DNA of 64,000 nucleotides from Chitinophagales bacterium (GTDB lineage Bacteria > Bacteroidota > Bacteroidia > Chitinophagales > JADIYW01): NCBI GenBank assembly GCA_023957245.1, contig JAMLHJ010000003.1:62001-126000 (forward strand). The letters are read 5' to 3'. A program made the translations under genes and the position numbers. Positions 15,293 through 32,931 of the stretch are shown piece after piece. Below the pieces are notes generated by a model. It made no database searches and was not told the DNA's origin. It saw only the letters and a list, made by a program, of their open reading frames with translations. Each line of letters begins with the position of its first letter. The first letter of the stretch is position 1.

Positions 15293-16030
15293 TTATATCC
15301 ACAAATCTCTGCTTTCGGTTTTTAGCCAGTGTAGATGTCTCTTGTAATCAGGCATAGCTTTTTCTACCAATGCCCAAAATCGCTCTGAATGATTCATTTC
15401 AAAGCGGTGTGCTAATTCGTGTATAATGACATAATCACAGACTATTTGAGGGACGAGTAGAAGTCTAGTGGATAGACTGATAGTGCCATTGCTAGAGCAA
15501 CTTCCCCATCTTGAAGTAGTGTATCTTAATGATATTTTTCCAATATCTGCTTGAAAATGCAGGCGATTGAGTTCGTGAACACGTTTTTGTATTGTGGTCA
15601 AAAAATATTTATTAAGACCTTTGATAAATAGGTTTTGAATGTGTTGATGCAACTCTTCTTTGTTATTGGAAAGATGAATGGGAAGTTGAAATTTTATTTG
15701 GTTTTGTTGGGCAAATCTCATAGCAGCTCGATTGCCAGAGACAAATTGTTGTTCAATGTTGTATGATTGCCCCAAAATTTCAATTTTACTCCCAGTTTCA
15801 AAATGATGAGTAGGCGATGCTGAATATAAATCCTTTTCGGCTATAGTTTTTTTTGCCCATTCAATAAGCTCTAAAGTAGATTTATCTCTCTGGGCTGCAC
15901 TCATTCCCTTTGGAATACGGATGATAATTTGCTTTTTTCTAAGCGCAATCCGTGCTGAAGATCTCGTCTCGATAATGATTTTCACAGGCACAGGCAAATC
16001 CTGAATTGCAAGAAGTGTTTTTTGGTTCAT
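15293..16030 (-). CDS. YgjP-type zinc metallopeptidase (M48/DUF45-like)
   Basis: This 245-residue protein matches the YgjP family of predicted minigluzincins. The zinc motif HELAH is at about residues 203-207, preceded by SRWGSCSSNGTISLSTRLLL, the strongest family signature, and followed by NHSERFWALVEKAMPDY, which supplies a further conserved Glu/His region. No signal peptide is visible, so it is probably cytosolic. Its start lies 36 bases after the stop of the upstream exported-protein gene, so the three may be one operon. The physiological substrate of YgjP proteins is not established. Confidence 0.85.
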   Translation of the reverse strand: MNQKTLLAIQDLPVPVKIIIETRSSARIALRKKQIIIRIPKGMSAAQRDKSTLELIEWAKKTIAEKDLYSASPTHHFETGSKIEILGQSYNIEQQFVSGNRAAMRFAQQNQIKFQLPIHLSNNKEELHQHIQNLFIKGLNKYFLTTIQKRVHELNRLHFQADIGKISLRYTTSRWGSCSSNGTISLSTRLLLVPQIVCDYVIIHELAHRFEMNHSERFWALVEKAMPDYKRHLHWLKTESRDLWI

Positions 16031-16066: not shown

Positions 16067-18199
16067 TTAATTCATCTCACTTTTTATCATGTGATTATAC
16101 GCTTGAATAAATATGGCTCCAAGGTTTTTATGTGGAGGTACATAGTCTAAAAATCTTTCATAACTTTTACCGCTACCTTTGAGTTTGCTGTCTAAGTCTT
16201 TCCATAGATTATTCCAAATCAATAGATTTTTATCTTTAAGCGTTTTGCTCATTTCAATCAATAAAGCATTATTGACAGTGTAAGTACCTATTTGTTTAGA
16301 TGCTATAATCTGAGCATTGGGCGCTCTTTTAATAACCTCTGAAAGGTTGTGATATCCTCCACAAGAACCTAGAAATACAACTTTTGCATATTCTGGAATC
16401 TGATTGATAGTGTTCATTGCATAATAGCTATGCCCTCTGTGAACAATTATAGAAGGATGAATTTCGCCATTTTGAACCTTATGCACCAATGCTTCCTGAC
16501 CTTCTCTTTCAAAAAGTGGTTTATTGGCATAGATAGTAGTAGATTGCTTGCCTTTTCCTTTTATTACGACAAAGTAATTTGAATCTAATATTTGATAACC
16601 AGCATTTTTGAAAGAGCTAATAAATGTACTGAAAGAAGTCAATCCATCTTCGTCATCAAAAAAGAAATGCATCTGAGTAGTTCCTAGTGAGTCTGCAAAA
16701 GATTCTATTGAAATTTGATCTACAGGCGGTAGTGTATAAGGGTTTAGTAAATCTACAAAGTTTGAATCTATATTGTTATTGCCAATTTTTTGATACAATA
16801 ATTTTAGTAATAAACCATATAAAGTTCTGTTGTCATTACTCATTTCAGGTAAGCAAAATTCTTCTTTTAGGTATGTTTCGAAAGTGTTGAGATAACTTAA
16901 ATTTTCTAAGCTTCCAAAAGTATCTGCAACATAAACAGCTTCTGAAATATTCCTGTCATCACCATTCAATTCGGAAACAAATTTTTTAAGAACTTCTTTG
17001 GCATTTTCCTCTGGCATAGTGGCTAAAAATGTCTCTAAAGCATTGTATCCTGCACATAATTTGATGAATGTTCTGAACTTATTAAAATTCACTTGTTCTA
17101 ATAAATAATAGCCATTTAGTCCTTCGCTTTTCATTTTTAATAGCAATCTTTCAAATAAACCATTGAATGTAGATGTGAATATTTCTTCTGGACTATAAAC
17201 AATTAGAGTGTATAATTCTGAAGCTCCCATAGTTCTTACATTGGCAAATCGTCTGCTCGTATCTGTCAAGTCATGCAATTCATTCACTTTTCTTACTTCT
17301 TCTAAAGCACGGATACTTAATTCCTGTTCAATATCATATTTGCCTATGGAATTATTTTGCTGTTTAGCTTGGATGAGTGCATTTAAATAAGTTTGAGGAT
17401 ATTGTGATATACTATTGAGGACATCTGGGGAAGTATTGTTGTGGTATATCATATCTATGAAATAATATACTTTTGATTCATTGCCATATTTGTTATACAA
17501 GTCCACCAGTAGTTGAACAATACTATCTTGACTTTCTGAAACTAAAGCATTCACACTGTTTTTGCTATTAAAATATTTTTTTACAGTCATGGGAGATACT
17601 TTAGCTACCTCTTCAACTATTTTCAATGCATAAGGCTCAGTAGAAAACAGATTTAAACTTTTTAGAACATCACTTGGGTAAACGAGTGCGGCTTTGAGCA
17701 AGAAGGTTTCAGCTTCAGGTGTCTCTTTATAGTAAGTAATATTATTGATAGAAGATAATATATCTCTGAGCAGATAACTTTGAAAATCTTCTTCCCCTTT
17801 ATGTTTTAGAATACTATAGATGTTTTTAAAAAGACGTTCATAATAATCTAAAAAGTGATAATTATAAGGAGTTATTTTTACCAATATACTATATGTCTGC
17901 AAAAGGTATCCATAACTGATAGCACCATCAGTGTTTTTATCTTCAATGACTTGCTGAATTGAATCAATTAAATTGATATACGTATTACTAGCTTTTTGTG
18001 TGAGTTTGGAATCTTTAAAAGTTACAATACTATCGTTAGTGCCATCAAGATTATCTAAATATTTCTGTAAATGGTCAATTTTTTCATGAAATGCCAATCG
18101 TTGAATATTAAACTTCTCTGCTTGCCCCCAAGTTGTATTGGAAGATAACAGCATGATTATCAATGAAAGATATAATTTATTTGATTTCCAAAATGTCAT
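16067..18199 (-). CDS. Exported protein with a His/Cys C-terminal domain, short paralogue
   Basis: I do not recognise a named family. The 710-residue protein starts with a Sec signal (LYLSLIIMLLSSNTTWGQ) and has a long helical middle. The last 190 residues form a domain shared with the neighbour at 18177-21158: FFFDDEDGLTSF, then IIVHRGHSYY (His587), VVFLGSCGGYH (Cys613) and DYVPPHKNLGAIFI. A His after one hydrophobic strand and a Cys after the next resembles the catalytic arrangement of clan CD (caspase/gingipain-like) peptidases. That link is inference. Its start overlaps the upstream paralogue's stop by 23 bases, implying one operon and translational coupling. Confidence 0.7.
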   Translation of the reverse strand: MTFWKSNKLYLSLIIMLLSSNTTWGQAEKFNIQRLAFHEKIDHLQKYLDNLDGTNDSIVTFKDSKLTQKASNTYINLIDSIQQVIEDKNTDGAISYGYLLQTYSILVKITPYNYHFLDYYERLFKNIYSILKHKGEEDFQSYLLRDILSSINNITYYKETPEAETFLLKAALVYPSDVLKSLNLFSTEPYALKIVEEVAKVSPMTVKKYFNSKNSVNALVSESQDSIVQLLVDLYNKYGNESKVYYFIDMIYHNNTSPDVLNSISQYPQTYLNALIQAKQQNNSIGKYDIEQELSIRALEEVRKVNELHDLTDTSRRFANVRTMGASELYTLIVYSPEEIFTSTFNGLFERLLLKMKSEGLNGYYLLEQVNFNKFRTFIKLCAGYNALETFLATMPEENAKEVLKKFVSELNGDDRNISEAVYVADTFGSLENLSYLNTFETYLKEEFCLPEMSNDNRTLYGLLLKLLYQKIGNNNIDSNFVDLLNPYTLPPVDQISIESFADSLGTTQMHFFFDDEDGLTSFSTFISSFKNAGYQILDSNYFVVIKGKGKQSTTIYANKPLFEREGQEALVHKVQNGEIHPSIIVHRGHSYYAMNTINQIPEYAKVVFLGSCGGYHNLSEVIKRAPNAQIIASKQIGTYTVNNALLIEMSKTLKDKNLLIWNNLWKDLDSKLKGSGKSYERFLDYVPPHKNLGAIFIQAYNHMIKSEMN

Positions 18200-21158
18200 A
18201 TAATGCTCTTATTAATATAGCTCCAGCATTTTTATGAGGAGGTATATAATCTTTAAAATATGGATTAGATCCTACTTGTTTGTTCATTTTATTCCAAAAT
18301 TCAGACCAAACTATATCTTTGCCACTTCGGATATCATCATTGATTTGTTTAAATAATGGATCATTGATATACATTGTCCCCACGTTTCTATTGCAAAGAA
18401 TTTGTGCTCCTGGAGCTCTCTCTATTGCTACTTGCTGAACATGGTATCCTCCACAAGAACCGTCCAATATCAGTTTGGTTGTGGAAGGAACTCTAGAAAA
18501 GGTTTTAAGGGTATGTGTACTCAATCCTCTATGAACTATAATTTGCGGGTCCAATGCATTTTTCTTCATATATTCGACCATGTCGGCAATTCCTTTTTCT
18601 CCTTCTCTGGCTTTATTGGCAAAAATATCAATCTTCTTTCCTGTTTTAGATTGTATGAGAACGAAGGTGCCTAAATCTTTTATACTCCATTCAATATTGC
18701 TGCGTTCATAAGAACGTATAAAATTGTTATATGAACCAATACCATCTTCGTCATTATAAAAATAATATTGTTGTACATTGGTCAATTGTTGATTGAATAG
18801 GGAATAAATAGGGAGTATATCTACATTGGGTAAAGCATATTTTTCAGCGGCATATTTAGCCCAACCATCTTCTATTTTTGGGGCAATCAAAGTAGATAAA
18901 ATTCCATAGATAGCCACTCCTTTATCTAATTTTTGAGATTCTACTCTTTCATATTCTATTTTGAGTTGCTGATGGAGTAATTGGACTATTGAAGGGCTAT
19001 TTAAACTAATAAAGATATCTGCAACTTGTATAGCATCATTCTCTGTTAAATTTTCAAGTCCTCCGAGAAGCATCTGAATGATTTGGTTTTTTTCGGATGT
19101 AGTAAATGCATTAAAGACAGTATCGAGAACATCGTAGTAGGCACATTTGCGTAAGAATTTTTTATAATTATTGAATCCTAGCTTTTTGATAAGTGGAAAA
19201 ATATTTCCTTGAGGCGATTTGGTAATCAAAGATTTAAGCATTTGATTGAAACTGCTTTGGATAATCTCATCTTCGCCGTAAGTGATAAATGTATATAATT
19301 CCTCTGGGCTGAGCACGTCTAATTGTTCGTTGAAATAGTTATCTGTGTTTTCAGAGATATTTAGGTTTCTAACAAATTTTAAAGCACGAACAGAAACTTC
19401 TTCTTCCAATGAATAACGTCCCATCACATTGGGATTGGAAAGCAAACTAATCATTTTGGCTGTCAATTGATTGCTGTTTTGGCAAATGCTATCTGCTTTT
19501 AAAATGGATAGTTTTTGATGGTAAATATCATCGAGAAGTAGATAAGCCCTAGTATTAATTCCTGCTATTTCATTGATTTTATATAGAGTTTTTATGACAC
19601 TATCTTGGCTATTTCTAAATAAATAATTCCAAGGATGTGTTGGCTGTATGATGTAGTTTTTTGTAGTTAATGGAGCAGTTTTTCCAATATTCTTGAGGGC
19701 ATCGATTCCTTGTTTTTTGAGTTTGATTTTATCTAGATTTTTGATAATTTCTAAAGGGTAGATTTTAGAAATATATTGAAGCAAATCATTTGCATAAGGT
19801 TCATCTATCCATTCTGTAATTTTTTCTAATGCATTATAGGGTGCATCTTTCCATTTGATGAGATTTTTCTCTTGCTCAGTCAAATTGAAATTATATGTTT
19901 TTATGATGAATGCAGGAGTTTTAGGTTTGGGAAGTGTAGGTTGAATAATCGATTTTGAATCAATATTGAAGGCAGAATTGAGCTTTTCTAATTGCTTAGG
20001 ATCGGCTTCTGCTCTTCTTTTCCTAATATAAGTTTTCAGCGTATCGGCTCCACATAAAGTCCCCCAAGTTTTTTGAAGTTGGTCATGTTCTATCCTTTCT
20101 TGAAATGCATAAATATCTTTTAACGAGATGGTATTCAAGTAATTTTCTACAATGACTGTATTTTTATTTTTTAAAAATATCCACTTCAAAAATGCATCAA
20201 GTTCTAATGGGCTAAGCATTTCATACATTACAAATAATGCTTGAATACGACTACTATCTTGTATGCTATCAAATGATTCCATCTGCCATTTGTCAGGACT
20301 TGAAGTTTTATATTGTTTGATTTTTCTAATATATTTTGAAGTAATCTCATCCCATTTTTGCTGAATTGCAGTAGATGCCAACATAGGAGGATTGATGACA
20401 AGTGGGAGTATATTATTAATAAGAGTTGATTCGTGTTTGGAGAGTTCTTCTGCTTGTTCGATACTCATTTGTTTTTTGGAGATATAGGGTAGGAGATAGT
20501 AGGGATGTTGACTATATCTGTATTTCTTATAGATATCAAATAAGATTTTTATATCTGAGTTGGTGCTTTTAGATAATTCAGTTTTTACAAGGTTGTTGTA
20601 GTGCATAAATTGGCTAAAAGTATTGGGGCTACTGAGGATTGCTGTTTCTAGATCTTTAGCGTCTAAGCAATAATCCATTTTTGAAAATTGTGCTATTAGC
20701 TCTTGAGGTCTTTCTTTTGCCATTTGTACAGTAGCTTCAGATGACACTTCTGATGGAGTTAAAATTTTCACAGCTGAATAATAAGTGGGTAAAAGTTGAT
20801 ACACCCAAGATTTCATATCAGTGTTCTTGTTATTTCCTGCTTTTAAGATATTAAGTGCTTGTTCAAAAATGTCATCATAGACACCTTGATTATATTTTTT
20901 ATAGTTAGATTTTGAAATTTGGGTAAGATATCGATTTAATAATTGGAAATAATTATCTGGTAGGTATTGAGGATTGCTGACCCATTCTTGAATTTCTTGT
21001 AGGTTTCTATAATTGTCTTCTGAAAAATTGAGGCTATCTGTTTGAAATCTTAGAATGTGGCTTGAAATGATATCAGATTCAGTAGTAGTAGCTCTAATAG
21101 AATTTATAGAGGAGAAAAATATAAAAAATAGTAAAATATATGTCGCTAATACTCGCAT
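18177..21158 (-). CDS. Exported protein with a His/Cys C-terminal domain, long paralogue
   Basis: This 993-residue exported protein (signal YILLFFIFFSSINSIRA) is first in the operon. It is collinear with the 710-residue neighbour over the C-terminal half, with an extra N-terminal helical region of roughly 280 residues. Shared landmarks are YNDEDGIGSY, IIVHRGLSTHT (His876), LILDGSCGGYH (Cys902) and DYIPPHKNAGAILI. His and Cys are 26 residues apart in both proteins. The rest looks like α-helical repeats with recurrent hydrophobic positions, possibly a solenoid. No lipobox, T9SS tail or membrane anchor beyond the signal is seen, so the protein is likely periplasmic. Function is unknown; a peptidase-like role is only a hypothesis. 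Confidence 0.7.
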   Translation of the reverse strand: MRVLATYILLFFIFFSSINSIRATTTESDIISSHILRFQTDSLNFSEDNYRNLQEIQEWVSNPQYLPDNYFQLLNRYLTQISKSNYKKYNQGVYDDIFEQALNILKAGNNKNTDMKSWVYQLLPTYYSAVKILTPSEVSSEATVQMAKERPQELIAQFSKMDYCLDAKDLETAILSSPNTFSQFMHYNNLVKTELSKSTNSDIKILFDIYKKYRYSQHPYYLLPYISKKQMSIEQAEELSKHESTLINNILPLVINPPMLASTAIQQKWDEITSKYIRKIKQYKTSSPDKWQMESFDSIQDSSRIQALFVMYEMLSPLELDAFLKWIFLKNKNTVIVENYLNTISLKDIYAFQERIEHDQLQKTWGTLCGADTLKTYIRKRRAEADPKQLEKLNSAFNIDSKSIIQPTLPKPKTPAFIIKTYNFNLTEQEKNLIKWKDAPYNALEKITEWIDEPYANDLLQYISKIYPLEIIKNLDKIKLKKQGIDALKNIGKTAPLTTKNYIIQPTHPWNYLFRNSQDSVIKTLYKINEIAGINTRAYLLLDDIYHQKLSILKADSICQNSNQLTAKMISLLSNPNVMGRYSLEEEVSVRALKFVRNLNISENTDNYFNEQLDVLSPEELYTFITYGEDEIIQSSFNQMLKSLITKSPQGNIFPLIKKLGFNNYKKFLRKCAYYDVLDTVFNAFTTSEKNQIIQMLLGGLENLTENDAIQVADIFISLNSPSIVQLLHQQLKIEYERVESQKLDKGVAIYGILSTLIAPKIEDGWAKYAAEKYALPNVDILPIYSLFNQQLTNVQQYYFYNDEDGIGSYNNFIRSYERSNIEWSIKDLGTFVLIQSKTGKKIDIFANKAREGEKGIADMVEYMKKNALDPQIIVHRGLSTHTLKTFSRVPSTTKLILDGSCGGYHVQQVAIERAPGAQILCNRNVGTMYINDPLFKQINDDIRSGKDIVWSEFWNKMNKQVGSNPYFKDYIPPHKNAGAILIRALYDILEIK

Positions 21159-22634: not shown

Positions 22635-23804
22635 TCAAAATAGAACCCTTTGTAGTGGATTCGTTTTAGGAGGTGGTTCGATATTAAAGGGCTCATTTAT
22701 CCATTTTATTAAATCTACTTTGACAAAAAGATTTAATCTTATAAATGCCACTAAATTTGAAAGATACCAATCATATTTTGCAATAGCTTTCAGATACTTT
22801 AAGATAAGTATTGTGATTAAAGCCGTCCATATTTGTATCATCACAGCATTATGTGAAGTTCCTATAAAAGATTTGATGTGTAAGAGTTGTTTTATCTCTC
22901 GAAAGAATATTTCCACCTGCCACCTCGCTTTATAAAGTTCACTTATCGTGTTTGCTGTCCAAGACATTTGATTGGTGATAAGTTCTATTTCCTGTTGATT
23001 CTCTTCATCCCAAATAGCTACTCTTCTCAATTGTTTTGGGTATTTGTTTTTGGCTTCATCTCTTTGTAATTCAATGATTTCATCTTTTAGTATATGTTGA
23101 TGTCGGTTATCGGGTAGCTCCCTCTCTTTAATACTTACAAACTTGAGATTCTCTTTATGTCTAACCACAAAAAACACTTCATTGCTGTCCCAAACGTGTA
23201 GAAGTGAAAAATCATTGTAAAAGCGGTCTGCTACTATTACACATTGTTTGATGAGCGGTATGTCATACGCTCCTTTATTATCTGCTGTTTTCCCATCTGT
23301 GACATTTACATAAGCTGGAAGCAGACCATCATATTCTAAGAGTGTATGCATCTTCACTGCTCCTTTGGCAGTTTTATACTTTGCCCAATCAAATAGGCTT
23401 AAACACAATGAAATGACCGTTGAGTCTAGTAAGAATATTTTTGACTTTATCTTGAATTTTATCCTTTTGCGAAAAGTCTGTTGTCCTAAAGTTTGAAGTA
23501 ATACATAATAGTATTCTCTGAATAATTCCCAGTTACGCCGTTGATTTTGATAGCTCACAGTTGATTTAGATGGGGCAGTTTCTATCCCTAAATGGTTGAG
23601 GTTGCCTGTAGCTGAGCGAAGCCCATTACTTATATCTCTTACTGATTGACTTTTGGCAAATTGGCAGAAAAGCATAGAGATTAAATGCGTCCAACTATTA
23701 AACCCCTTATTATGTTTGTCGGTATTCTTTTCTTTGACTATTTTATTGAAAGATGAACGGTCAAGTTTGCTAATTATTTGAGAAAATAACGTTACATTTG
23801 TCAT
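22635..23804 (-). CDS. IS4-family transposase
   Basis: This 389-residue DDE transposase has its catalytic triad at D127 (FLLDST), D193 (VVADRFYND) and E298. The IS4 signature Y-2-R-3-E-6-K is exact at Y291, R294, E298 and K305. The N-terminus (FSQIISKLDR, FNSWTHLISMLFCQFA, SVRDISNGL) matches the DUF4372 domain found on this subgroup. The frame is complete from ATG to stop with no disruption, so the enzyme may be active. It lies inside the inverted ends of the element at 22557-23889. Confidence 0.95.
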   Translation of the reverse strand: MTNVTLFSQIISKLDRSSFNKIVKEKNTDKHNKGFNSWTHLISMLFCQFAKSQSVRDISNGLRSATGNLNHLGIETAPSKSTVSYQNQRRNWELFREYYYVLLQTLGQQTFRKRIKFKIKSKIFLLDSTVISLCLSLFDWAKYKTAKGAVKMHTLLEYDGLLPAYVNVTDGKTADNKGAYDIPLIKQCVIVADRFYNDFSLLHVWDSNEVFFVVRHKENLKFVSIKERELPDNRHQHILKDEIIELQRDEAKNKYPKQLRRVAIWDEENQQEIELITNQMSWTANTISELYKARWQVEIFFREIKQLLHIKSFIGTSHNAVMIQIWTALITILILKYLKAIAKYDWYLSNLVAFIRLNLFVKVDLIKWINEPFNIEPPPKTNPLQRVLF

Positions 23805-28767: not shown

Positions 28768-31700
28768 TTAATTTTTTATGAATTTGATATTCTGATTGTT
28801 GTTATCAGCATCTAAATAATGAAGAATATAAGCACCATTTGCAAGGTGATGAGTATTGATATTTAATTGATTCACACCTTTTGAGATAGTTTGTTCCCAA
28901 GAAAGAATGTTTTTACCTGAAATATCAGTAATTGACAATTGAGCTTTTTGATTGACATTAGAAGATATCCAGACACTTAAATCAGATTGAGTAGGATTAG
29001 GATATAATTTTACAAATCCATTTTTTAATGAATTATCATCTACTTCGACATTGATGATGGCACTCAATTCAAATGTCTGATCTAAATCAACCGTTTTTAA
29101 TCTGTAATAGTTGTTTCCGACTGCAATGTTTGCATCTTCAAATTGATAGAATTTTGGACTGTTAGAAAATCCATTTGCTGCGACTTTTCCTATAGATTGC
29201 CATGATTGTCCGTCAAGGCTTTTTTGTACTTCAAAATAATTAGCGTTGCTTTCTGATGCTGTAGTCCAAGTCAATTCATTGATATTTTTGCCTTTGTTAT
29301 ATATACCAGTGAATGAAGTCAGCTCAACAGGCAAAGGAGAAGTGCCGTATTTGTTAGAGTGGATATAGAATGTTGAGAAATCTTCTACTTCAAACTCTGC
29401 ATAAAAATCATCTCCAAGACTAACAATAGTAGATGGAATCAATTTGGCTGAGTCAGCAAACTGTCCAGGTAGTGGGAATACATTTTTAATTTTTGTTACA
29501 TTCAACTCTTGAGGGGTGCTGAATTCATAAGGAGTACCTTGACAAGCGTTTTTGAGATTGTTATATTCTTCCTCAGTGAAAAATATTCTTACTCTAGATT
29601 TTCCGTTGTTTTGAGGTGTAATGGCAACACTTCTTTGAAGATAAGGTTGTTCTTCAAATTCATCTGTCATAATTGTAGGTACAGTAATTTCAATTTTTGT
29701 ACAGATTTGAGTTTTTAATAGCTCAGGAGCGTCTGAAGATAAACTTTCAATTTCACCTATCAAATGACCGCTATTATTGCCATAGATTTTATTAGTTACA
29801 CCATCTGCAATGATACAAGAAGAACATTCGTTATTTTCTGAAACAATATTATCATTTAGAGTTGGAATAACAATATTGATACTTCCTGCAACAATATCTG
29901 CACAAGCACCACTAGATAGTTTAAGTTGGTATGTCGTAGTGGAGCCAGCAGTTAATCCTGTTACTGTCAATTCATTGCTTAAAGGTGAGCCAGTTCCATC
30001 TCCTGAAACCTTTTCCCAAGTCAATGTTGAAGTATTAGGAAGAATATTTGTTGCTTCTAGAACTGCACTTTTATTGCATAAAAACAAATCTTTTAATGAT
30101 ACAGTTGCAGTAGGTTGTTCATCTATTTGAATGGTTGCAGTATTGGAAATAGTATCACAACCGCTAACTGTATTTGTCAATATACATCTGATTGAAGTGC
30201 CATTCAATGATAATGGAGCATTATTAATAGATAAGGTTGCTAATTGATGTCCACTGAAAGTTGAATTTTCATTGGTATTCACCCAGTTTGTTCCATTATA
30301 GAATTGCCATTGGTAGGATGGTTGACTGATTGGAGTAACAATATTTAACGAGCCTGAACCTCCAGAGCAAATAGCAACAATAGCTGGTTGTGTAGTGATT
30401 TCTGGACTTGGAGGATTGGAGATGGTTACATTTCCAATATTTACAGAAGGTGAGCAAGAGCTATTGTTTTTTGTTTTCAATAGGACAGAATAGCTTCCAA
30501 TAGGTTTAGTGAAACTATTGGATGTTTGCCAGTTATTACCTCCATCAATACTATATTCGTATTGGTTATAAGCCCATAATGTAATATTATCCAAAGAATA
30601 GTTTTCTTTCATACCTCCTGTTTTAGCTGCTACAGCCAATTGCCAGCCTGTTTTGTCTATATTGACATAGTCGTTGGGTAGTTGAAGATTACTGAAAGCA
30701 GTTTTGGCTCCAATAGAAAGTGTAAGTTGGTTGGAAGAATTGATAGATAATTGGACATTTCTCCATGTTGCGCCTATCCAGTCATTGGTGTGTAGTGCAC
30801 AAGAACCAATTTGGACATTATTGTAATAAACAGATACAGCATGAGCACAATTAGTAGATGATCCTATCCATTCATTAAATGCAATTTCTAATCCATTGTT
30901 GTTACTTAAACCAGATGGAGTTCCTGTTGGAGAAGCAGGGATATCTCCAGCATAAGTGATACTCCATCCATCACCACCATTATTATTATCTGGTTGTGCA
31001 TAGAAGTCCATTTCAAATCTAATAGCTGTTGCATTATAATTGAGTGGATTTTTGAGTACTACAGTTCCTTGTTGGTTGTTAGAGTTATTGCTAGTCAATT
31101 TTAAATATCCATCTGCATTATAAGCTGCATTGCCATGGATAGTTTGAGTTCCTTCTTGAGCAATAGCGTCATTTGACGCAGAAGCATACCATAAAGTTGG
31201 AGTATGTGACGTAGGAGTAGCTGTAATCGTTCCATTGCCGCCACAAGTAGAAGGTTGAGTTGTCGCTAATGTTCCAGTAGGAGTCAGATTATCATTAGAA
31301 TATGTGATAATTAATTGAGGTTTTTCTGCTTGATTGTAACCTCTCCAATAAATAATATTTGATTCATTATTACCTGAATTGTTAGGTACGTGGTAAGTAA
31401 CATTTGCTGCAAGTGTAATAAAACCATTTCCAATTCTTGATAAGATTCTATTATTAGCTAATGGATAATTGATATTAAATTCCTTCCAGCCATTACTTCC
31501 TTCGATATAATCTCCTCCACCATTACATCCAGAACAATTAGGCGCAGTCGCCCAAACATCATAGCTGAGATATCTTTCCATATTGGTAATATCATTGTAA
31601 ATTTTTGCACGAGAATCTGGAACAGGGTCAGTATTTGCCCATCCAATGTCAAATTTTAGTCCATCGTTTCCATTTCCATTCAACCAATTGTATTGATTTA

Positions 31701-32931
31701 ACTTTAATTCTGAATTGATAATGCAAATATTAGCTGGAATACTGCTGATATTAAATTTTGAAAAAGCATCTCTTTGAATATCGTTATTGCCAGAATTATC
31801 TCTATCCCAGAAGCCACATTCCATATTATTTCCTAGATACCCATTATCACCAGAAGGTTGAGTGCCATTGGGCAATGTTCCTGTACAACCTGTCCAGCTA
31901 TTTGTATTATTTGGAATTGCACTTAAGGTAGGGTCAATAATAATTGGATAAGCAGTGTTTTCGTTGTTTAACCATGCCAAAGGTACTAGCATAGTAACGA
32001 TATATTTTTTGTTGTTGATTTTCTTTACAATATAATCTGCTTCTTCCTTAAGATGTTTTTTGTTCTTAGGAAAATAGAATAAATCTTTGTAAGTCAAAAT
32101 TTGATTGCCTTTAGCATCAATAAACACCAATTTTTTATTTTTTAATTTCAAAGCATTTGAGTTGTCGATGAATTGAGCTATTTCAACATCTTTGTCAAAA
32201 GAGATATATTCCTCAAATCCAACAAATCCTGAAGTTGACAAATCTGAAAAGATATTTTTCTCAATGATGTACTTAGATTCTATTTGATCTAAATATTGCT
32301 CTACAGAAAATGTAAGGTCAGCATTGAGTTGGAATAAAACTTCGTTATTCTGAGCAGATGATAAAAAGGGTAAGGTATTAGGAAATGATGTGATTGTCTT
32401 CAGAACATGTTTGTCTTCATTGTACAATTTTATATTTCCTGTTGTATAAGAAGCAATATGTTCATTGTTGCTTTTATAAAAAGAAACACCTTTATTCAAA
32501 TCACCATAATAGGTTTTAATTTGGTTATGAGTGTTTGAAAATTGATATCCATTCTTTTGTGCTTTTACGATTTGATTAGAAGCTGTTTTCCAAATTCCAT
32601 TTTCAAAATAGTGCATAGGACCAGCTGTAAGGAGAGCTGTTAATGTTCCATCATTATTCTCAAATGTCTTAGAAGTTTCAGTTCTTTTTGAAATGATTTC
32701 ATTTGCAGGATTAAACTTTGAGTATGGACCATTTTTTTCATAAAGCTCCATGACCACATTGTCGTTTAGCTCTTGTGGTAAAGTATTTTGGATATGATAT
32801 CCTGCACCACTAGCCAATGCTGATTGGGTGCAAATAAAAGACATCAATACAACACTGAGATAACTCTTTATTTTAGTTGAGTTTTTTAGGCTGTTGAATT
32901 GAGCAGATAAAAGGTGTAAAACTGTAACCAT
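28768..32931 (-). CDS. Large secreted protein with lectin-like domain and T9SS sorting tail
   Basis: This 1387-residue protein is exported by Sec (hydrophobic signal about residues 24-41) and then by the type IX system. Its C-terminus is a type A sorting domain starting at LYPNPTQSDL and ending with NGAYILHYL and a short basic end. Approximate layout: a β-rich N-terminal part (about 45-310); a DNRLRE-like β-sandwich region (about 320-550) after PIIIDPTLS; a legume-lectin-like region (about 587-790) with GDGWSITYAGD and GLEIAFNEWIG; Ig-like repeats (about 830-1100); and an FN3-like module (PVELTSFTG, FEVQKSLDG) before the tail. It probably ends up on the cell surface or outside as an adhesin or glycan binder. 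Domain names are by eye. Confidence 0.8.
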   Translation of the reverse strand: MVTVLHLLSAQFNSLKNSTKIKSYLSVVLMSFICTQSALASGAGYHIQNTLPQELNDNVVMELYEKNGPYSKFNPANEIISKRTETSKTFENNDGTLTALLTAGPMHYFENGIWKTASNQIVKAQKNGYQFSNTHNQIKTYYGDLNKGVSFYKSNNEHIASYTTGNIKLYNEDKHVLKTITSFPNTLPFLSSAQNNEVLFQLNADLTFSVEQYLDQIESKYIIEKNIFSDLSTSGFVGFEEYISFDKDVEIAQFIDNSNALKLKNKKLVFIDAKGNQILTYKDLFYFPKNKKHLKEEADYIVKKINNKKYIVTMLVPLAWLNNENTAYPIIIDPTLSAIPNNTNSWTGCTGTLPNGTQPSGDNGYLGNNMECGFWDRDNSGNNDIQRDAFSKFNISSIPANICIINSELKLNQYNWLNGNGNDGLKFDIGWANTDPVPDSRAKIYNDITNMERYLSYDVWATAPNCSGCNGGGDYIEGSNGWKEFNINYPLANNRILSRIGNGFITLAANVTYHVPNNSGNNESNIIYWRGYNQAEKPQLIITYSNDNLTPTGTLATTQPSTCGGNGTITATPTSHTPTLWYASASNDAIAQEGTQTIHGNAAYNADGYLKLTSNNSNNQQGTVVLKNPLNYNATAIRFEMDFYAQPDNNNGGDGWSITYAGDIPASPTGTPSGLSNNNGLEIAFNEWIGSSTNCAHAVSVYYNNVQIGSCALHTNDWIGATWRNVQLSINSSNQLTLSIGAKTAFSNLQLPNDYVNIDKTGWQLAVAAKTGGMKENYSLDNITLWAYNQYEYSIDGGNNWQTSNSFTKPIGSYSVLLKTKNNSSCSPSVNIGNVTISNPPSPEITTQPAIVAICSGGSGSLNIVTPISQPSYQWQFYNGTNWVNTNENSTFSGHQLATLSINNAPLSLNGTSIRCILTNTVSGCDTISNTATIQIDEQPTATVSLKDLFLCNKSAVLEATNILPNTSTLTWEKVSGDGTGSPLSNELTVTGLTAGSTTTYQLKLSSGACADIVAGSINIVIPTLNDNIVSENNECSSCIIADGVTNKIYGNNSGHLIGEIESLSSDAPELLKTQICTKIEITVPTIMTDEFEEQPYLQRSVAITPQNNGKSRVRIFFTEEEYNNLKNACQGTPYEFSTPQELNVTKIKNVFPLPGQFADSAKLIPSTIVSLGDDFYAEFEVEDFSTFYIHSNKYGTSPLPVELTSFTGIYNKGKNINELTWTTASESNANYFEVQKSLDGQSWQSIGKVAANGFSNSPKFYQFEDANIAVGNNYYRLKTVDLDQTFELSAIINVEVDDNSLKNGFVKLYPNPTQSDLSVWISSNVNQKAQLSITDISGKNILSWEQTISKGVNQLNINTHHLANGAYILHYLDADNNNQNIKFIKN

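Follow-up and report, generated by a model that had tools for sequence, protein, structure and literature searches.

A tandem pair of exported Chitinophagales proteins whose invariant His/Cys domain marks a probable variant of the caspase/separase-like peptidases

The window, the whole 64,000-nucleotide stretch of DNA analysed here, carries on its reverse strand two adjacent genes, A and B, whose open reading frames overlap by 23 bases and whose products are paralogues sharing 30% identity over 559 residues (BLASTP E 1e-79). Both proteins start with a signal-peptide-like sequence, so that the description in the initial annotation of two exported paralogues encoded by overlapping genes agrees with the reading frames, the N-termini and the alignment alike. 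The features of the locus are as follows.

15293-16030, minus strand: YgjP-like metallopeptidase gene, downstream and not counted in the A/B unit.
16067-18199, minus strand: gene A, an exported protein of 710 residues (ORF, BLASTP, AlphaFold, alignment) with a signal peptide, a helical solenoid at residues ~35-490 and a C-terminal His/Cys alpha/beta domain at ~505-710 containing Asp516, Asp518, His587, Cys613, Asn643, Trp662 and Trp666.
16070-16714, minus strand: conserved C-terminal domain of A, residues 496-710, as folded and searched.
18177-21158, minus strand: gene B, an exported paralogue of 993 residues (ORF, BLASTP, profile comparison) with the same His/Cys domain preceded by an extra solenoid copy at residues ~20-415.
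18180-18824, minus strand: conserved C-terminal domain of B.

The sequence blocks FDDEDG, IIVHRG and GSCGGYH are all present, and His587 and Cys613, correctly numbered in the initial annotation, lie 26 residues apart. The annotation had described shared DEDG, IIVHRG and GSCGGYH blocks and an invariant spacing, and had held that loss of the His or Cys in homologues would count against it; we found H-x-G-x-S and G-x-C-G in all 79 distinct homologous domains, with the His and the Cys in every case exactly 26 residues apart, a conservation far beyond chance. The His motif reads HRGHS in 75 of these, HRGLS in three and HRGYS in one, and the Cys motif reads GSCGG in 70, GSCGS in seven, and GSCGA and GGCGG in one each. 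With the motif definition of PMC12445089 for comparison, these are H-R-G and G-[SG]-C-G motifs as against the usual H-G of clan CD. In a 26-row cross-phylum alignment the invariant columns are F513, D516, D518, G519, H587, R588, G589 and S591 on the N-terminal side and G611, S612, C613, G614, N643, W662, W666, Y686 and P689 on the C-terminal side, S612 having one exception in the wider set of 79. The second His of HRGHS is replaced by Leu in B of the window's genus and once by Tyr, and this sequence variation indicates that it is not essential.

Within the order Chitinophagales, 175 of the 396 genomes sampled carry a match to the family (30 of 99 relatives did so in a first sample), and two near relatives are Chitinophagales MAGs. 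Among 395 Bacteroidota genomes sampled, the convincing matches all fall within Chitinophagales; weak phylum-wide matches, in G199 and G145, look like chance. Four megaplasmids of Azospirillum also gave tblastn matches to the domain (E 6e-27 to 1e-22), and these alphaproteobacterial relatives keep both the His and the Cys at ~29% identity, so that, judged by sequence similarity, the family spans more than one phylum. The Azospirillum proteins are annotated as hypothetical and are 631 and 738 residues long in two cases, and the solenoid is partly recognisable in them (hhalign E 1.7e-5, probability 79%). Of the megaplasmid loci L210-L212, L211 and L212 share an ethanolamine-lyase/LysE/GGDEF neighbourhood. 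No relative was found in viral contigs or phage records.

Profile comparison showed that B 20-415 matches both B 416-795 (E 5.5e-37) and the solenoid of A (E 7.8e-41), so that B is A with its helical solenoid lengthened by a second copy. The family tree separates long from short forms, with support of 94/90 for the long branch and a weak 43/49 for the short one, a split consistent with an old duplication. We fetched 14 loci at which B is followed by A on the same strand; 13 of them show a gap of -23 to +4 bases, as does the window, and in the fourteenth, L037, the start is misplaced. Since the B and A genes abut or overlap, their translation is presumably coupled. One further locus has the A and B forms in divergent orientation, and other loci have both forms at separate places or the short form alone.

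Nearly all family members, like A and B, begin with a signal-peptide-like hydrophobic stretch; the exceptions include A of L037, for which the start given is probably incorrect. Pfam matched no type IX sorting tail on A or B, and this, together with the signal peptide, points to the periplasm or cell envelope as the probable site of action. Elsewhere in the window such a tail (PF18962) is carried, with no other Pfam domain, by a protein of 1387 residues (28768-32931).

Scans of the family against Pfam, NCBIfam, PADLOC and PHROGs gave nothing credible, nor did a PDB sequence search with a single sequence and two profiles, and literature searches found no description of it. The family is real, old and unnamed. 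Against comparison profiles that we built from Bacteroidota loci, CHAT (PF12770), C14 caspase/metacaspase (PF00656) and C25 gingipain (PF01364) gave hhalign probabilities of 0.6%, at most 1.4% and 0.5%, respectively, and none of the three was matched by Pfam; C11 yielded only a few sequences. Families of this clan often lack profile homology to one another (YabG review, PMC12445089). Elsewhere, the window's genome encodes a single true CHAT protein and two peptidases of family C25 (G000:C12:37266-38015, G000:C1:457112-458215 and G000:C3:50174-51259).

The full-length AlphaFold model of A is of low quality (pLDDT 65, pTM 0.52); it shows an array of helices and then an alpha/beta domain, and in fold searches it matched helical repeats; the long helical N-terminal parts described in the initial annotation are seen in A as this predicted array. 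The domain modelled alone is of moderate confidence (pLDDT 67, pTM 0.70), having been built on six sequences and having a pLDDT of ~60-70 near the dyad. Its first half comprises strand 13-18, helix 22-37, strands 41-44, 48-52 and 60-64 and helix 66-81, and its second half strand 89-93, helix 96-105, strand 111-115, helix 121-130, strand 136-139 and helices. In this numbering His587 is His92, within strand 89-93, and Cys613 is Cys118, following strand 111-115, giving a predicted doubly wound alpha/beta order of b1-a1-(b-meander)-a2-b(His)-a3-b(Cys)-a4-b. The caspase/haemoglobinase core has its His after strand 3 and its Cys after strand 4 (PMC4357240), and the modelled A domain would share that order of elements, with an extra beta-meander ahead of strand 2.

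Fold searches with the domain returned small GTPases first (best Foldseek E 3.7e-3), with VIA-align Z scores of 8.5-10.8 to Arf, Rab and Rag over ~130-146 residues, and no caspase was among the 50 Foldseek and VIA-align matches listed. GTPases, too, have the doubly wound core order, and their matches therefore neither prove nor exclude a caspase fold; the fold evidence is compatible with one, not specific for it. A GTPase-like domain, as the VIA-align scores would suggest, is itself highly improbable: a P-loop is lacking, as DDEDG rather than GxxxxGK[ST] forms the turn that follows the first strand, the invariant residues are a His and a Cys, and export takes the protein to a place in which GTP is not expected. 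The interpretation put forward in the initial annotation is supported in part, in that the His and Cys end successive strands of a predicted alpha/beta domain; as to the clan CD fold it proposed, the fold matches listed are GTPases and profile homology to CHAT, C14 and C25 was not found.

Among known systems separase (MEROPS C50, PF03568), which is eukaryotic and intracellular, also ends a long helical N-terminal part with a C-terminal His/Cys domain. Human separase has its dyad at H2003/C2029, again a spacing of 26 (PMC12609080), and on the strength of this spacing and the solenoid-plus-C-terminal-domain layout separase is, by analogy, the closest counterpart of A and B in arrangement. A and B differ from it in being bacterial and exported, in having H-R-G-x-S and DxDG where separase has H-G, and in having no PF03568 match, for which reason we do not file the family as separase. 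Neither A nor B matches PF03568 at E<=10; the profile is absent from the families listed for 50 domain members, does not match two Azospirillum members at E<=1, and gave no match in a search of 148 Bacteroidota genomes, controls included. TPR-CHAT/Csx29 (PF12770) is bacterial and likewise closes an array of helical repeats with a caspase-like domain, but its H585 and C627 are 42 residues apart (PMC9729208) rather than 26 and it has no profile homology with A and B. Caspase-7 (H144/C186) and PmC11 (H133/C179) also differ from A and B in spacing (PMC4357240). Gingipain/PorU (C25, PF01364) are exported Bacteroidota His/Cys peptidases like A and B, although profile homology is absent and the genome's two C25 copies lie elsewhere. 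YabG (U57, proposed for clan CD) provides a precedent for a His-Cys peptidase that has neither sequence homology to clan CD families nor a strict His-Gly, but it is spore-specific and its H172 and C218 are 46 residues apart (PMC12445089).

On balance we lean towards A and B being a new family of exported, caspase/separase-like (clan CD-like) cysteine peptidases, and we regard the family as a probable variant of the caspase/separase-like peptidases, one that probably works as they do. The points in favour are the His before the Cys, at a spacing of 26 in 79 of 79 domains and kept in Alphaproteobacteria, the predicted order of elements, the equal spacing in human separase, the solenoid and C-terminal domain layout, the signal-peptide-like starts and the tandem B-A genes; the points against are the GTPases among the listed fold matches, the profile probabilities below 1.5%, the H-R-G motif and the moderate confidence of the six-sequence model near the dyad. 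In such a peptidase, Cys613 would be activated by His587 where the parallel sheet opens, the order and invariance of the two residues being observed and their geometry predicted, with the oxyanion site shaped by R588-G589-x-S591 and G611-S612. An acidic P1 pocket for Arg/Lys substrates, or else a calcium site, may be provided by the invariant D516-x-D518-G loop that follows the first strand, and the helical solenoid would hold or restrain the substrate. With the longer solenoid of B, the co-translated proteins might have different substrate reach or exert control over each other.

The same dyad could belong to an enzyme other than a protease that is built on a different Rossmann-like alpha/beta scaffold and would act on envelope polymers or lipoproteins, as an amidase, a thioesterase or an acyl/peptidyl transferase. 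The invariant G-x-C-G may resemble a nucleophile elbow, the nearest folds listed are doubly wound alpha/beta proteins and not caspases, and no peptidase profile matches. In glutamine amidotransferases, DJ-1 and alpha/beta hydrolases, however, the catalytic His comes after the nucleophile, whereas the sole invariant His here precedes the Cys by 26 residues, and we regard such an enzyme as unlikely, if worth keeping in view. Improbable, in our estimate, is a non-enzymatic exported scaffold in which the His, the Cys and the DxDG aspartates bind metal or sense redox and the solenoid is the working part. Its DxDG loop does look calcium-loop-like (there are weak EF-hand matches, in one domain member each), and an extracytoplasmic site beside a two-component kinase would suit a sensor, but a single Cys and a single His at an exact spacing within Gly-rich turns (HRGxS and G-x-C-G) seem more like an active site, and no further invariant ligand lies nearby in the sequence.

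If the peptidase reading is true, A and B represent an uncatalogued caspase/separase-like family found in 175 of the 396 genomes sampled of one order, would extend the bacterial caspase-like enzymes to a co-translated envelope pair, and would provide a bacterial protein with the spacing and layout of separase. Its strict catalytic signature would also make it easy to test.

The kinase mentioned above is a PhoR/PhoB-like sensor kinase, usually accompanied by a response regulator and so named from matches below the curated cut-offs for those names, which adjoins the family in four GTDB families of Chitinophagales (loci L041, L042, L044, L045, L048, L052, L054-L056, L059 and L060) and is absent at the window locus. 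For the L060 kinase, 15 genomes were tested; each contains a single clear best counterpart, which in eight of them (G021, G031, G056, G062, G077, G087, G090 and G093) is encoded no more than a few kb from the peptidase-like gene. The link may in part be inherited synteny and offers a lead for regulation. We put forward, tentatively, that exported separase-like peptidases of two phyla, made as a coupled long/short pair and encoded in many genomes beside a PhoR/PhoB-like pair, process envelope proteins, which would make them separase-spaced His/Cys peptidases at work outside the cytoplasm. The YgjP-type gene, which the initial annotation had suggested may belong to the same unit, adjoins A only in the window's genus; beyond that genus the neighbourhood gives it no support as a partner of A and B, and on this ground we set it aside. 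At window positions 22635-23804, upstream of small genes resembling rpsF and rplI, there is a DDE transposase (PF01609 with DUF4372); at the corresponding place in the related locus L057 no transposase ORF is listed.
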